64,000 bases of DNA. Source: Limihaloglobus sulfuriphilus (lineage in GTDB: Bacteria; Planctomycetota; Phycisphaerae; Sedimentisphaerales; Sedimentisphaeraceae). Of this stretch, positions 51,686-59,177 are shown piece after piece. The translations under genes were made by a program, and so were the position numbers. The stretch covers positions 1,984,001 through 2,048,000 of the forward strand of contig NZ_CP019646.1 in NCBI RefSeq assembly GCF_001999965.1, in the 5' to 3' direction. The notes under the pieces were generated by a model that saw nothing but the letters and a program-made list of their open reading frames with translations, was not told the origin of the DNA and did not search any database. Positions within the stretch are counted from its first letter, which is position 1. Each line of letters begins with the position of its first letter.

Positions 51686-52453
51686 TCAGCCTTCATGGCC
51701 GGCTCTTTTCTCACAGGCACCATGCTCGGCACGGTCCTTGAGACGGTAGCTGCGGCCTGTGATGTTGATGATCTCAGCATGATGCAAAAACCTGTCCAGG
51801 ATTGCGGTTGCCGATGGTACATCGCCAATTAGCTTGCCCCAGTCTTCCAGCGGCCTGTTGGAGGTCATCATCGTGGATTTGTTTTCATATCGCCGCATAA
51901 TGATCTCCAGCAGATACTCGCCGCAGCGTTTTGGCAGATGCTTGATGCCCATATCATCGATTATCAGCAGCTCCGGCTTGAGATATCTGTTCATTACCTT
52001 ATCCTGACAGGCAAAGGCATCTTCGTGCAGAAAATCCCTGGCAACATCAAATATCGAGCGGTACCGCACAGCCATGCCTGCCTTGACTGCCTGATAGCCT
52101 ATCGCCTGACACAAATGACTCTTGCCCACACCCGGCGGGCCAAGCAGCAAAACATCAATGCCCTCACTGATAAAGCGGCATGTGGCCATATCAAATATCC
52201 GGCTTCTTTTAATCGAAGTGTTGAACTGCCAGTCAAACTCCTCCAGTGTCTTGAGTTCTCTAAACCCGGCAGCCTTAATACCCCTTTGGATCTGGCGATG
52301 CTTTCTGACCAGCATCTCATCCTGCAGGATCAGTTCTAAAAACTCAGCATGAGTGAGGCTGTTGCCGGCTGCCTCCTGCAATCGAACTTCAAGTATCTCA
52401 AGCATACCTGACAACCTTAGTGATTTTAATGTGTTGTGCAGTGAATTGTTCAT
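51686..52453 (-). CDS. istB: IstB ATP-binding transposition helper
   Basis: A 255-residue AAA+ protein with Walker A 'LLLGPPGVGKSHLCQAI' (about residue 103-119) and Walker B 'ELLIIDDMG', the IS21 IstB/DnaC-like helper that selects targets for IstA. AGGAG precedes the ATG. It lies 34 bp downstream of istA in the usual order. Intact. Confidence 0.93.
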   Translation of the reverse strand: MNNSLHNTLKSLRLSGMLEILEVRLQEAAGNSLTHAEFLELILQDEMLVRKHRQIQRGIKAAGFRELKTLEEFDWQFNTSIKRSRIFDMATCRFISEGIDVLLLGPPGVGKSHLCQAIGYQAVKAGMAVRYRSIFDVARDFLHEDAFACQDKVMNRYLKPELLIIDDMGIKHLPKRCGEYLLEIIMRRYENKSTMMTSNRPLEDWGKLIGDVPSATAILDRFLHHAEIINITGRSYRLKDRAEHGACEKRAGHEG

Positions 52454-52487
52454 AATAATCTGCTCCTGAATAAGTTATGATTATTGT

Positions 52488-53987
52488 TCAGCCCAGAACC
52501 TCTCTTACGAATTCTCCGTAACTGGAGATATCTCTGATAATAGGGTGCTCATCTATAAATTCCATCTGGAGCTGCCTGTCACCGCCGTGTTTAATAATAC
52601 TCCTGATGGTCTTCAATCGAAAAGCATTGTGGCTTAACGCTATTTTACATGCATTATCGATTTTGTTACCGTTATAGGTATTGGTCATATTCAGCAAGCC
52701 CAGAAGTACGCGGATACCAGGTATTCCTCTGGCCTCAAGCATCTGCCGGGCCCATCTCTGGGCATTCTCACCTATCAGACTGACTCGTTCAAGCATCCAT
52801 ACAACGCCGTTTTCTATCTTTGTTCTTTTCTCTGAATGAATATGTCCGTCCTGAGTCTGGAATCTGCCCGGCTCAACTTTAGCGTGAACAACAATCTGCT
52901 CCATGCTGCGGTTAAATACTCTTACCATATGGCCGTCCCATCTTGCCCATACCTTGCGGCCGGTATATTCCGGAGGCACCGAGTAATAGGTCCTCTCTAC
53001 CTCTATATGGCCGTCCCTGTGAACGGACCGCTGAGCTTCTGTAAATGAAGGAAACCTTCCAACCGGAAGCCTCAATAAAGCAGGCTTTTCCTGTTCTGTG
53101 AACAATTTGCCTACCTGCTTGCGGGTAGTGCCGTGAATACGGGTATCGGCAATACGGCTCTCCCAGCTGAGAAGAAACTGATTCTGCTCTGAGAGGCTCT
53201 TAAAGCTGCGGCCCTTGAGGGCGTTATTTTTGACATATGCTACTGCTTTTTCAACCTTACCCTTGTGTCTTGGGGTATACGGCTTACAGGGTAAAATGGC
53301 GGTACCGTAATGACGGCAGAATGACACTATTTTTGGGTGTATCTCAGGATCATACCAGTCAGCTTTGTTTACAGCAGCTTTAAGATTATCTATTATCAGT
53401 GTTTGCGGAACACCGCCAAAGTGGTGAAAAGCGTTTTCCAGGCAATTTATAAAGTTATCGCCGGTCTGCCTGAAAACTGCCTCGCTGTAGGATTTACGGG
53501 AGAAGCTAAGCACTACCCGTATTACATGAGTTCTTTTTCGTCTGCCATCTTTCGTTATTACCGGTGCACCCGTACCAAAATCTATCTGAGCCTCTTCACC
53601 GGGCCTGCATTCAAGACGCCTGAACGGAACAGGCGAATTTTTACTGAGGCGGTTGACAAACCTGCGAACGCTGTGGTAGCTGACATCAGAGCCGTGGTCG
53701 TCACGAAGATCCTGCCATATACGCCGGCGGCTGAGCCCCATATCCAGCTTGTTCTTAATTATTTCACGGTAAGGCTCACAATTGCTTACCGGACCGGTTG
53801 AGCTTTGGGCCACCGACCCGGGAGGCGCGTTAGTGACCTGTTTTGAATTATCATTGTCTGATTTTGCATACTTACGCACCGTATCCAGGTGGATGCCAAG
53901 CTCTCTGGATATACGCCTGCAAGACCAGTTACGCTCTCTTAATGTCTGTATTACACTTCTTTTAGTCATTTTTAGATAGTTCGCCAT
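52488..53987 (-). CDS. istA: IstA transposase
   Basis: A 499-residue transposase: N-terminal helix-turn-helix ('RISRELGIHLDTVRKYAKSD'), integrase core with 'EEAQIDFGTG', 'TLIIDNLKAAV' and the glutamate in 'RHKGKVEKAVAYVKNN' (DDE), and a C-terminal beta domain. Length and order match IS21. Its probable promoter lies in the AT-rich palindromic stretch near 54000-54030. Confidence 0.93.
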   Translation of the reverse strand: MANYLKMTKRSVIQTLRERNWSCRRISRELGIHLDTVRKYAKSDNDNSKQVTNAPPGSVAQSSTGPVSNCEPYREIIKNKLDMGLSRRRIWQDLRDDHGSDVSYHSVRRFVNRLSKNSPVPFRRLECRPGEEAQIDFGTGAPVITKDGRRKRTHVIRVVLSFSRKSYSEAVFRQTGDNFINCLENAFHHFGGVPQTLIIDNLKAAVNKADWYDPEIHPKIVSFCRHYGTAILPCKPYTPRHKGKVEKAVAYVKNNALKGRSFKSLSEQNQFLLSWESRIADTRIHGTTRKQVGKLFTEQEKPALLRLPVGRFPSFTEAQRSVHRDGHIEVERTYYSVPPEYTGRKVWARWDGHMVRVFNRSMEQIVVHAKVEPGRFQTQDGHIHSEKRTKIENGVVWMLERVSLIGENAQRWARQMLEARGIPGIRVLLGLLNMTNTYNGNKIDNACKIALSHNAFRLKTIRSIIKHGGDRQLQMEFIDEHPIIRDISSYGEFVREVLG

Positions 53988-55596: not shown

Positions 55597-55905
55597 ATGA
55601 AAAATATTATTAATGGCAAGGTATATGATACCGAAACAGCAGAATTAATTTGTAGCTATAAATATGGCTATGAAGGAGACTTTAGATATGTCTATGAGGC
55701 CTTATACAAGAGTTACAATGGACAATTCTTCATCGAGTATAAAGGTGGAGCAATGTCTAAGTATTCAGAAATTACAGGTCCGAATGAGGCGTTTGGCGGT
55801 TCTGGAATTCGTCTAATTGATGAAGATGAAGCCAGAGATTTTATAGAGTCTAATGGTTCTACTGAAGATTATGTAAAAGCCTTTGGTGAGCCAGAAGAAG
55901 GCTGA
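55597..55905 (+). CDS. Small mobile-element-type protein (102 aa)
   Basis: A 102-residue acidic protein beginning 'MKNIINGKVYDTETAELICS', with 'FFIEYKGGAMSKYSEITG' and a C-terminal 'DEDEARDFIE' segment. Proteins with this opening and layout are, to my knowledge, common on Gram-positive and gut conjugative elements, but no function is known. An AGGAGA RBS lies 8 nt before the ATG. It follows the structured region at 55452-55557 and is monocistronic. Confidence 0.6.
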   Translation: MKNIINGKVYDTETAELICSYKYGYEGDFRYVYEALYKSYNGQFFIEYKGGAMSKYSEITGPNEAFGGSGIRLIDEDEARDFIESNGSTEDYVKAFGEPEEG

Positions 55906-56450: not shown

Positions 56451-56831
56451 ATGGAGAAAAATATTCATCAAAGAATTTTTATATGCCCCAAATGCGGGTC
56501 AAACAAATTGGGATATCAAAATTATGTTAAGAGCGTAATGCCTATTATTATTGATGACGCTGGCCAGGTTAGTTATGAACAGCCTGTAGTTGACCATGAT
56601 GACCATGTGCCAGCCGAGTTTGGTTATATCTGTCAGAAATGCGGGAATAAGATATCTCACGCTGGAGAATGGCTTGAGACTGAGTCTGAATTGATACACT
56701 ACTTAAACTTATCCCAAGAACAGTTAGACAGGGAACAAAAGCAGTTCGAGGTATATATCGAAGAACAAGCCCAGGAACAGAAAGATAGAGACGAGGAGAG
56801 GCATCTGTGTTATGAGGAGTGCTGCTCCTGA
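56451..56831 (+). CDS. Zinc-ribbon protein (126 aa)
   Basis: A 126-residue protein with a split zinc ribbon: 'FICPKCGSNKLG' (about 10-21) and 'YICQKCGNKISH' (about 61-72), separated by a 40-residue strand region. The C-terminal helix is rich in Gln/Glu ('LDREQKQFEVYIEEQAQEQK') and ends with Cys pairs. GGAG lies 7-9 nt before the ATG. Function unknown; such proteins are common cargo of mobile elements. Confidence 0.6.
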   Translation: MEKNIHQRIFICPKCGSNKLGYQNYVKSVMPIIIDDAGQVSYEQPVVDHDDHVPAEFGYICQKCGNKISHAGEWLETESELIHYLNLSQEQLDREQKQFEVYIEEQAQEQKDRDEERHLCYEECCS

Positions 56832-56954: not shown

Positions 56955-57071
56955 CAAAGAATCTCAATCTATAGGAAAGTGAAAAGGTATTTGATAAAAT
57001 TTCAAAATAGTAAGGAATTCTTTACTTAAAAAAAAAGGATTCTACGGCATTTTGCCGAATATATATATAAG

Positions 57072-57216
57072 GGGACGGCTCTTATAGTTATAGAGCAGGA
57101 TAAAAAATGAATAAAAAAGAAATCATATATTGAAGTTTTACACTACGTAGTATAGACGTATTAAACAATCCTGCTCTGAGCCTGGTACGCCGTCCCGTAT
57201 CGGGCTCATTTTTTTA
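57072..57216 (+). ncRNA. Pseudoknotted leader RNA with embedded leader peptide and terminator
   Basis: Three mutually consistent elements are seen. (1) An intrinsic terminator: 11-bp stem GAGCCTGGTAC/GTATCGGGCTC (57178-57188, 57197-57207) followed by ATTTTTTT. (2) Its 8-nt loop GCCGTCCC (57189-57196) is exactly complementary to GGGACGGC at the presumed RNA 5' end (57072-57079), which makes a pseudoknot or, alternatively, an antiterminator helix. (3) AGAGCAGGAT (57092-57101) pairs with ATCCTGCTCT (57168-57177), hiding the AGGA RBS of a short leader ORF. A TATATA -10-like box at 57060 precedes it. It is the leader of the truncated gene at 57235. Confidence 0.6.
57107..57133 (+). CDS. 8-residue leader peptide inside the pseudoknotted leader
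   Basis: ATG at 57107 encodes 'MNKKEIIY' then TGA. An AGGA (57097-57100) lies 6 nt upstream but is inside the 57092-57101/57168-57177 stem. Translation here could open or be blocked by that stem and thereby influence the terminator. Its small size makes it tentative by itself; the structure around it is the argument. Confidence 0.4.
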   Translation: MNKKEIIY

Positions 57217-57234
57217 ATATAGGAGTAGGAAACT

Positions 57235-57675
57235 ATGAAAAAACGGATAACGTTGAAAAACTTTAAAAGACCTAAAAAATGGTCAGATTATAATTACAAA
57301 CAGTGGTTGAACAACTTTATGGACCTGAACAATTGGTCTCAGAACAAAGGGCGTCCTTTTGATAAGGATAAGAAGATAGGCAGAAGGCGTATAAAATATA
57401 TTAATTCCTGTCTTAGTTGCAAGGTTCCTAATTACAAAAATGCAGAGCCAGAATCCATACAAAAAGCTGCGATGAGAAGGAATTCAGTAAAACTGAATAA
57501 AAAAACAGTAGAAACGCATCTTCATACCTCTGAAAAAGAATTATACTTGTATTATTGCAATTCACCTTTTACTGATTTACCTCTTTTTTGCATTGATATT
57601 GATATTCTGGTTGATGAAGAATCAGGTGAAATAGTTACGAGCAGTCAAGACCTCAAAGAAGCAGAAGAGTATATA
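57235..57675 (+). pseudogene. Truncated plasmid/ICE-type gene (3' end lost)
   Basis: With a strong AGGAGTAGGA RBS, about 147 codons of a basic protein remain ('MKKRITLKNFKRPKKWSDY', 'FTDLPLFCIDIDILVDEESG', 'DLKEAEEYI'). Beyond about 57675 the frame runs into host-type DNA antisense to the beta-helix gene and yields an artefactual tail to 57822. The 'FCIDIDI' strand after a long basic N-terminus recalls replication or primase-like proteins of mobile elements, but the diagnostic part is missing, so this is only a guess. Its complex leader would fit a copy-number-controlled rep gene. Confidence 0.6.
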
Positions 57676-57679
57676 TCTA

Positions 57680-58923
57680 CGTGCCGCATCGTCCGACTGC
57701 TCCATCACAGGTGCAGACCAGTTGCTAAGCGTGATCCCGTTGACGCCCATCTGCTCGATCCAGCAGCCGGAAACCAGGTGATGCGAGTTCTGACCCACAA
57801 TCATTATACCGTTGCGGCCTGAGTTCTTGAGATGACAATTGCGAAGCGTAATCCGCTCGGCGTTGTTCATCCAGACCAGGGCATGGTCGGTGTAGCCCCA
57901 TTCCTGTGCCCACCAGAAACGCGTCGGCGAGATTGCCTTTGAGTATTCGAACGCGAGGCCATCGATCTCGATGTCGTGGACAAGGCTGGTCATGGACGAG
58001 CCTTCGAAGCGGATGATGTCATCCAGGACGGGAAGCACGATGCTGAGCTTGTCGGGGTGAGCTTTTGATTGCGGGATCAGGTAGAGAACCTTTTCGGTGG
58101 TATCGAAATAGAACTCGCCGGGGGCATCGAGAAACGCGCGGTGTTCCTCAAGGAAGTATCGGGCCCTGGCCCTGTCCCCTTTCGGTTCACCGTAGGAGGG
58201 AACCATCGGTGTATCGTCCCGGTCATTGTTAAAGGTTATCTTTGCGGTTGACCGGTCGATTGCGGTGACCGAGCAGATCCAGCGGTGCCAGTCACATTTA
58301 CCCCAGGGAAAGATGTTGATCTTCATGGTTCCAAAATCATCGGGCACCTTGTCGAGATCCTCCTGCACAGCAATGATCCAGCTCTCGGTCGGGGTGGCTT
58401 GCTGCTTGGTGGAGCCGGTTACGGACTTAAGGTATACGCCGGCAGCCGTGGGGAAATCAGGTTCAAATTCGTAGTTGGGGTAACGGGCCTTGCGGATGCG
58501 CTTGCCGTTTTCATAAAGCGTGTGGCAGCTCTGGATATCGGGCAGGTTTATCTTCCAGATATTGTCATCGACTTTTGACCAGCCGGTCAGGCGTCTTCCG
58601 CCGAGCAGTCTCGCCTTGCCTGGGCCGCCGCTGCTGCGGTAATATACTTTATATCCGTTATTACCCGAGTCCCGGTCAGTGAAAACTATTGCCTCATCCA
58701 GGATATAGTCACCGGCTGCCGCATGGACGGTTATATCCTGATCCATCTGGGGTATCAGCTCACGCACAGCATCGCGGGCACGGGCTATAGTCAGAAAAGG
58801 TTTTTCGCGGCTGCCGGGGTTCTCGTCAGATCCGGATGTACTTACATAAAAGTCCTGCCCGAAGCACGCAGCGGCGGAAATTAGAATTGCGGTTATTTGT
58901 GCAATAGATTTTAAACTCATCAT
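57680..58923 (-). pseudogene. Truncated secreted right-handed beta-helix protein
   Basis: About 414 codons from an ATG at 58923 (AAGGTG upstream; alternatives at 58920 and GTG 58929). Signal peptide 'QITAILISAAACFG', then 'FYVSTSGSDENPGSREKPF' and 'LTIARARDAVREL', typical of planctomycete beta-helix glycan lyases or glycosidases, an insert, and the first helix coils ('RITLRNCHLKNSGRNGIMIV', 'HHLVSGCWIEQMGVNGITLS'). After 'EQSDDAAR' the sequence turns into island DNA read backwards and stops at 57622. Family members are usually much longer, so the C-terminal part is lost. Confidence 0.75.
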
Positions 58924-59177
58924 AAACACCTTTCTGCAAATTAAGAATATAGATCTAATAGTTGTTTATTAGCGGTCTTTCCAGTAAACACTGACCCTGC
59001 ACCAGCCATTATAACCTGTATGCCGGCGTTTTACAACATATTTCAGCTCGCGAAGACACCAAAAACGATCAATTACGATTCGCGGCGGTTCAAACACCTG
59101 ATCTTGCCGCGAGATAAAAAAAGTGCAAACTGCTTTTGTTTATAAGGTCTTTATTAACAGGTATATATAAAACTGAG

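Follow-up and report, generated by a model that had tools for sequence, protein, structure and literature searches.

The window considered here, a stretch of 64,000 nucleotides from Limihaloglobus sulfuriphilus that belongs to a single 3.87-Mb contig, contains, just upstream of a truncated replication gene, a leader in which the 5' end is complementary to the loop of a terminator-like hairpin, raising the question of what such an RNA might control. The original prediction was of a regulatory leader RNA that acts on transcription and resembles the rep leaders of IncI/IncB-type plasmids, an interpretation that we found to be partly supported. In our view, the region is probably a translational switch in a rep-gene leader, carried by integrated elements of Planctomycetota, with a pseudoknot favoring the ON state; we infer that the leader is transcribed, as well as the direction of the switch and its input.

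All three pairings were found where they had been predicted. The anti-loop sequence, GGGACGGC (57072 to 57079, plus strand), which forms the 5' arm of the pseudoknot, is the exact complement of the 8-nt loop of the PT hairpin, GCCGTCCC (57189 to 57196, plus strand; the 3' arm), with both arms identified by descriptor and covariation. Stem P2 joins GAGCAGGAT (57093 to 57101, plus strand) and ATCCTGCTC (57168 to 57176, plus strand) over 9 bp, or over the 10 bp originally counted if A57092-T57177 is added, provided that the PT hairpin leaves T57177 unused. P2 directly abuts the PT hairpin (57177 to 57188/57197 to 57208, plus strand), which was recognized as terminator-like by folding, descriptor, and a consensus terminator scan; its stem, predicted to be 11 bp long, is in fact slightly longer (12 bp, or 13 bp with the inner G-C pair), and the predicted T-run follows directly as seven thymines (57209 to 57215, plus strand). 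At the other end, a perfect palindrome, CGGCATTTTGCCG (57045 to 57057), lies immediately 5' of the leader and is followed by a putative -10 region of the leader promoter, TATATATATAA (57060 to 57070, plus strand), while a consensus scan for sigma-70 promoters called none for the window leader. Part of the anti-loop sequence is displayed in the loop of a further hairpin, P1 (57060 to 57092, plus strand). The predicted 8-codon open reading frame (ORF), encoding MNKKEIIY (57107 to 57133, plus strand), exists as well and is preceded by AGCAGGA, such that its SD lies inside the P2 5' strand, as proposed. With the pseudoknot not counted, the minimum free energy (MFE) of the window leader is -49.4 kcal/mol, corresponding to a folding z of -4.5 relative to 200 dinucleotide shuffles.

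Such a joint anatomy had been argued to be unlikely by chance, and this was borne out. A descriptor of it (an anti-loop of at least 7 nt, an abutting stem of at least 8 bp, and a hairpin of at least 9 bp) matched the 64-kb window once, at the site from 57072 to 57208, and matched dinucleotide-shuffled sequence once in 227 shuffles (29 Mb, both strands), so that approximately 0.004 matches are expected per window. Using Rep and the Zn-ribbon gene found upstream of the leader as queries, we obtained five further leaders in the same bacterial order: G025a (L021), G025b (L041), G152a (L036), G152b (L040), and G008 (L037). In all six leaders, the parts follow each other alike (anti-loop, P2 5' strand, linker, P2 3' strand, PT) while the letters differ; the linker between the P2 strands measures 51 to 72 nt, the gap between the P2 3' strand and the PT hairpin is 0 to 1 nt, and the PT loop of 8 nt is complementary to the anti-loop over 7 to 8 nt. 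In other words, at least six copies from mobile elements have kept the pairings while their letters changed. When a covariance model (R1) was trained on G152a, G152b, and G008 only, with the pseudoknot left out, it recovered G025b (E = 2e-6), the window (blind, at 57069 to 57215; E = 3.4e-4), and G025a (E = 0.014) in the 157 kb searched, where it gave no matches beyond these three and its own sources. The covariance-model check proposed with the original prediction thus both recovered the window from other genomes and brought relatives to light; the negative outcome of an order-wide search with R1 is weak, since the same search missed the window itself.

A second model (R2) was built from all six leaders, which makes the window's own R2 score circular. 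Its best new match, a site in G052 with an E value of 0.004 per genome (124 genomes), was not significant by itself. A 711-aa AEP-like Rep gene begins 29 nt downstream of this site, which combines an 8-bp P2 with a 13-bp helix between the P2 3' strand and the SD and contains a pseudoknot of at most approximately 5 bp, absent or weak. We accepted this site as a seventh, divergent member, and the family sample comprises seven copies, two of them close to each other, from one bacterial order. The contig carrying the G008 leader (L099, CAMDDF010000006.1) bears the title of a Candidatus Kuenenia metagenome-assembled genome, which may disagree with its placement in the window's order. Several other candidates were dismissed. 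The R2 matches L209 to L212 were without the anatomy and were treated as chance, the DNA matches L004/L012 and L005/L013 represented local resemblance only, and the pattern GTTCAGG...GCCTGAAC produced mostly chance matches, with only known members fitting the descriptor at the site of the pattern among the matches listed. A terminator loop in G152 C19 (L008; CCCATA, 6 nt) has an upstream complement but no P2, and the same is true of a hairpin ahead of the start of the Rep gene in G224 (L015:2475-2610, minus strand), whose loop CTGGTCC matches an upstream GGACCAG over 7 nt; both were left uncounted, since each can be explained by chance. No such leader was present at the G140 Rep gene or at the G012 Zn-ribbon locus, plasmid and phage collections contained no match to the window leader or Rep by DNA or protein search, and protein and pattern searches of viral contigs gave no further member. 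Similarly, Rfam 15 yielded no family match, with the whole window searched at the gathering threshold and the leaders at a permissive one, and no description of this leader was found in the literature, a search that was small and limited to open-access papers and is hence weak evidence of novelty.

Compensatory changes, which had been suggested as a check, were present in all three helices, pseudoknot included, as fits the predicted class of structured regulatory leaders. Because MAFFT misaligns whole leaders, core and covariance model alignments were used, with the covariation alignment consisting of the cores of five distinct leaders. In this alignment, 96% of cells pair, a value inflated by the fact that the registers were set by hand from the pairing, compared to 35 to 46% with partners slid by 1 to 3 columns. 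Both sides have changed in 19 of 27 pairs (5 of 8 in the pseudoknot, 4 of 9 in P2, and 10 of 10 in PT), and the covariation values were reached by none of 500 shuffles. Cognate anti-loops and loops form 7 or 8 of 8 pairs, compared to 3 to 5 of 8 between different sequence classes.

A fourth helix had been overlooked: within the P2 3' strand, TCCTGCTC (57169 to 57176) can also pair with the SD region of the rep gene, GAGTAGGA (57223 to 57230, plus strand). The complementarity extends over 8 bp in the window, 12 bp in G025a, 10 bp in G025b, 13 bp in G052, and 6 bp in G008 and over 8 to 9 bp around a bulge in the G152 copies; it was equaled by 9 of 2,000 shuffles for the window and for G025b, by 18 of 2,000 for G152b, and by 0 of 2,000 for G025a and G052. 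With the register set by hand and the G152 bulge removed, 92% of cells pair and two-sided changes occur in 5 of 9 pairs. Since the P2 3' strand complements both, the P2 5' strand is a near-copy of the SD region. Some complementarity to any SD is to be expected of a strand rich in pyrimidines, and in G152a and G008 the pairing with the SD is weak. When folded without the pseudoknot, three of the six leaders (G025a, G152a, and G152b) predominantly adopt the fold in which the SD is hidden, and a fourth does so as a minority state. G025b folds as a mixture, its MFE structure hiding the SD when longer flanks are included, and the window and G008 fold in the P2 state. For the window leader on its own, P2 is thermodynamically favored (P = 0.99) and the SD-hidden fold is a minority state, so that its OFF state would need help or kinetics.

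The gene that follows the leader was predicted to be a truncated mobile-element gene, and so it is. It encodes the N-terminal 149 codons of an AEP-primase-like replication protein (57235 to 57681, plus strand), retaining the DxD motif and ending shortly after it, before the S/T-x-G-x-x-H-type motif; the relatives in G152, G025a, and G052 show both. The G152 relative, a 650-aa ORF, is 28% identical over 108 aa (E = 1e-6 for the pair), and its Pfam AEP-TOTE match is weak and below the cutoff (E = 0.0044), while RepB_primase and CHC2 in G025b are above the cutoff. Replication genes follow the leader in four of seven loci, either AEP-like Rep genes (window, G025a, and G052) or RepB_primase and CHC2 (G025b), and full-length ones, which the original prediction had suggested looking for, indeed stand behind leaders in relatives. 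The ORF that comes next is short in G152, where a larger gene lies beyond it, and in G008 approximately 370 nt separate the leader from the next long gene. At 57681, the rep fragment meets a beta-helix-like gene (57622 to 58929, minus strand), and both are truncated there, the latter having a 447-aa frame versus 712 to 1,189 aa in paralogues from the same genome; the window copy is therefore a remnant.

Upstream of the window leader are small mobile-element ORFs and a Zn-ribbon protein gene (56451 to 56831, plus strand), homologues of which precede six of seven leaders, a linkage that is partly due to ascertainment because four leaders were found through this gene. The Zn-ribbon gene and the region upstream of the leader have a paralogue in the same genome (L010:10320-11025; G000:C1 about 1428300-1429000), which is 91% identical to the window up to 57083 and divergent after that. 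It has kept the promoter-like stretch and, with one loop change, the palindrome; its anti-loop has changed to GGAGTGGAGGCTC, and a transposase gene (L010:9268-10314) occupies the position where rep would be. Some further observations concern the surroundings of these elements. Between their leader and the larger gene that comes next, the G152 copies contain iteron-like direct repeats, ATGGACACT and GTGCCTAC (L046:5340-5440; L040:2180-2295), which suggests an origin of replication at this place. In G008 (L045:1077-5775), a beta-sliding-clamp-like gene is located ahead of the Zn-ribbon gene and leader, and genes for a sigma-70 region-4 protein and a DnaB-type helicase are located after the leader. 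An uncharacterized ORF family, MKNIINGKVYDTETAE..., is common to the window (55597 to 55905) and G025b (L043:2534-2842), upstream of the Zn-ribbon gene, and 499-aa and 255-aa ORFs in the window (51686 to 53987, minus strand) look like a candidate IS21-type istA/istB pair.

We propose that the P2 3' strand chooses between two mutually exclusive partners. In the ON state, it would pair with the P2 5' strand, an imitation of the rep ribosome-binding site (RBS), leaving the rep SD free; in the OFF state, it would pair with the rep SD across the PT hairpin and hide it. Pairing of anti-loop and PT loop would attach the 5' end to the P2-PT stack, which should reinforce the ON state, since P2 places the anti-loop close to the loop of PT. 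Whatever occupies the anti-loop, the PT loop, or the P2 5' strand would then favor OFF, be it an antisense RNA, a ribosome on the leader ORF, or a protein, such as the neighboring Zn-ribbon protein. Where the U-tract is good, PT may terminate transcription as well. More tentatively, and with prospects that we would place just short of even, these leaders may constitute an undescribed rep-leader RNA family of Planctomycetota, a strand-choice switch that trades an anti-SD between an RBS imitation and the real RBS and is gated by a terminator-loop pseudoknot. The letters of the pseudoknot drift between elements, which would make it a candidate for element-specific (incompatibility-like) recognition, perhaps by the neighboring Zn-ribbon protein.

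The step from a terminator to transcriptional control, made in the original prediction, did not hold up as well as the structure itself. An attenuator, in which a short leader RNA would end at PT, with read-through modulated by the pseudoknot or by P2 and a pT181/pIP501-like outcome, would suit the window, where the U-tract is strong and a 13-bp stem followed by T7 is terminator-like by consensus scan, and fair U-tracts are present in G025b, G008, and G052. However, the U-tract is poor in G152a, G152b, and G025a, no separate antiterminator strand pairing with an arm of PT was noticed, and the SD pairing, which recurs and covaries, points to translation, leaving attenuation an unlikely general explanation; what is conserved across the family is the PT hairpin, with a variable U-tract. 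The proposed leader peptide fared in a similar way, with the short ORF of the window confirmed but its peptide not conserved across copies: ORFs of 8 to 14 codons are found in the window, G025b, and G052, an AUG-stop is found in G025a, G152a, and G152b, and none is convincing in G008. This pattern, together with the result that a scan of the minus strand inside the leader for consensus promoters found none for an antisense RNA, argues against control exactly as in IncI, IncB, and IncL/M plasmids, where the leader ORF must be translated for the pseudoknot to form and repression comes from an antisense RNA directed at the 5' hairpin. We rate such control as quite improbable, despite the SD of the 8-codon ORF inside P2, the short ORFs of G025b and G052, and a pseudoknot arm situated in the P1 loop in five of six leaders. 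Given the varying U-tract and the nonconserved leader ORF, attenuation and leader-peptide control may be extras in some copies and not part of the shared core.

It could also be argued that the RNA acts in trans, as a small or copy-number RNA that merely happens to be located before rep, an idea with which the promoter-like region, the compact structure, the possible terminator, and the distant next long ORF of G008 are consistent. In six of seven loci, however, PT ends approximately 20 to 45 nt ahead of a start codon whose SD complements the P2 3' strand, and we give this idea very little credence. Even less can be said for chance inverted repeats in AT-rich remnant DNA: although the element in the window has decayed and its gene is truncated, this explanation is excluded for practical purposes by the descriptor statistics, the covariation, and the blind detection of the window by a model from other genomes, the last of which refutes it by itself. 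The translational switch remains the reading that we prefer.

Control of plasmid copy number by leader pseudoknots is known from enterobacterial plasmids. The repY-repZ leader of ColIb-P9 reportedly uses a long-range loop pseudoknot as a molecular switch, with SD sequestration as the alternative, and the window leader shares with it the position ahead of rep, the long-range loop pseudoknot, and the alternative sequestration of the SD. Unlike in ColIb-P9, a single strand here can pair either with an SD imitation further upstream or with the genuine SD, the anti-loop finds its pseudoknot partner in the apical loop of a hairpin resembling a terminator, the consensus promoter scan gave no sign of an antisense RNA, the leader peptide is not conserved, and the host belongs to another phylum. 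In rep leaders of the IncI-alpha, IncB, and IncL/M types, a pseudoknot allows rep to be translated and an antisense RNA prevents it (PMC10724649, PMC8125031, PMC10286972), the IncI-alpha ColIb-P9 repY-repZ leader being attributed to Asano and Mizobuchi 1998 (cited in PMC10724649); the repBA leader of the IncL/M plasmids pMU604 and pCTX-M3 has a pseudoknot required for rep translation, a short leader ORF, and an RNA I that sequesters pseudoknot bases (PMC8125031). With IncL/M, our family shares the pseudoknot in the rep leader and, in some copies, a short leader ORF, and it differs in the choice of strand, the terminator-like loop partner, the nonconserved peptide, the phylum, and the lack of kinship in sequence or Rep. 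The original likeness to IncI/IncB-type control was therefore upheld for the long-range loop pseudoknot (an 8-pair helix with two-sided changes in 5 pairs) and for the sequestration of the rep SD in an alternative fold (a minority state in the window leader alone) and did not extend to a conserved, translated leader peptide of the repY/repB kind; no plasmid was matched by DNA, by the Rep fragment, or by its full-length relative.

The antisense-driven attenuators of pT181 and pIP501 likewise have a terminator-like hairpin in a rep leader, but here the U-tract is not conserved, the state-changing helix hides the SD, and no antisense promoter was seen. Translational riboswitches and other anti-SD-switch leaders share the mutually exclusive anti-SD pairing; our leaders differ in that they have no conserved sequence resembling a ligand pocket and that loop letters vary as long as pairing is kept. 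The best reading is that the family follows the logic of the IncI, IncB, and IncL/M leaders with no kinship detected. If this is true, the same pseudoknot logic would recur in another phylum, with a different Rep family and in sequences that are unrelated, which would suggest that it evolved more than once, and the Planctomycetota, where we know of few replication-control systems, would gain a testable replicon control element.
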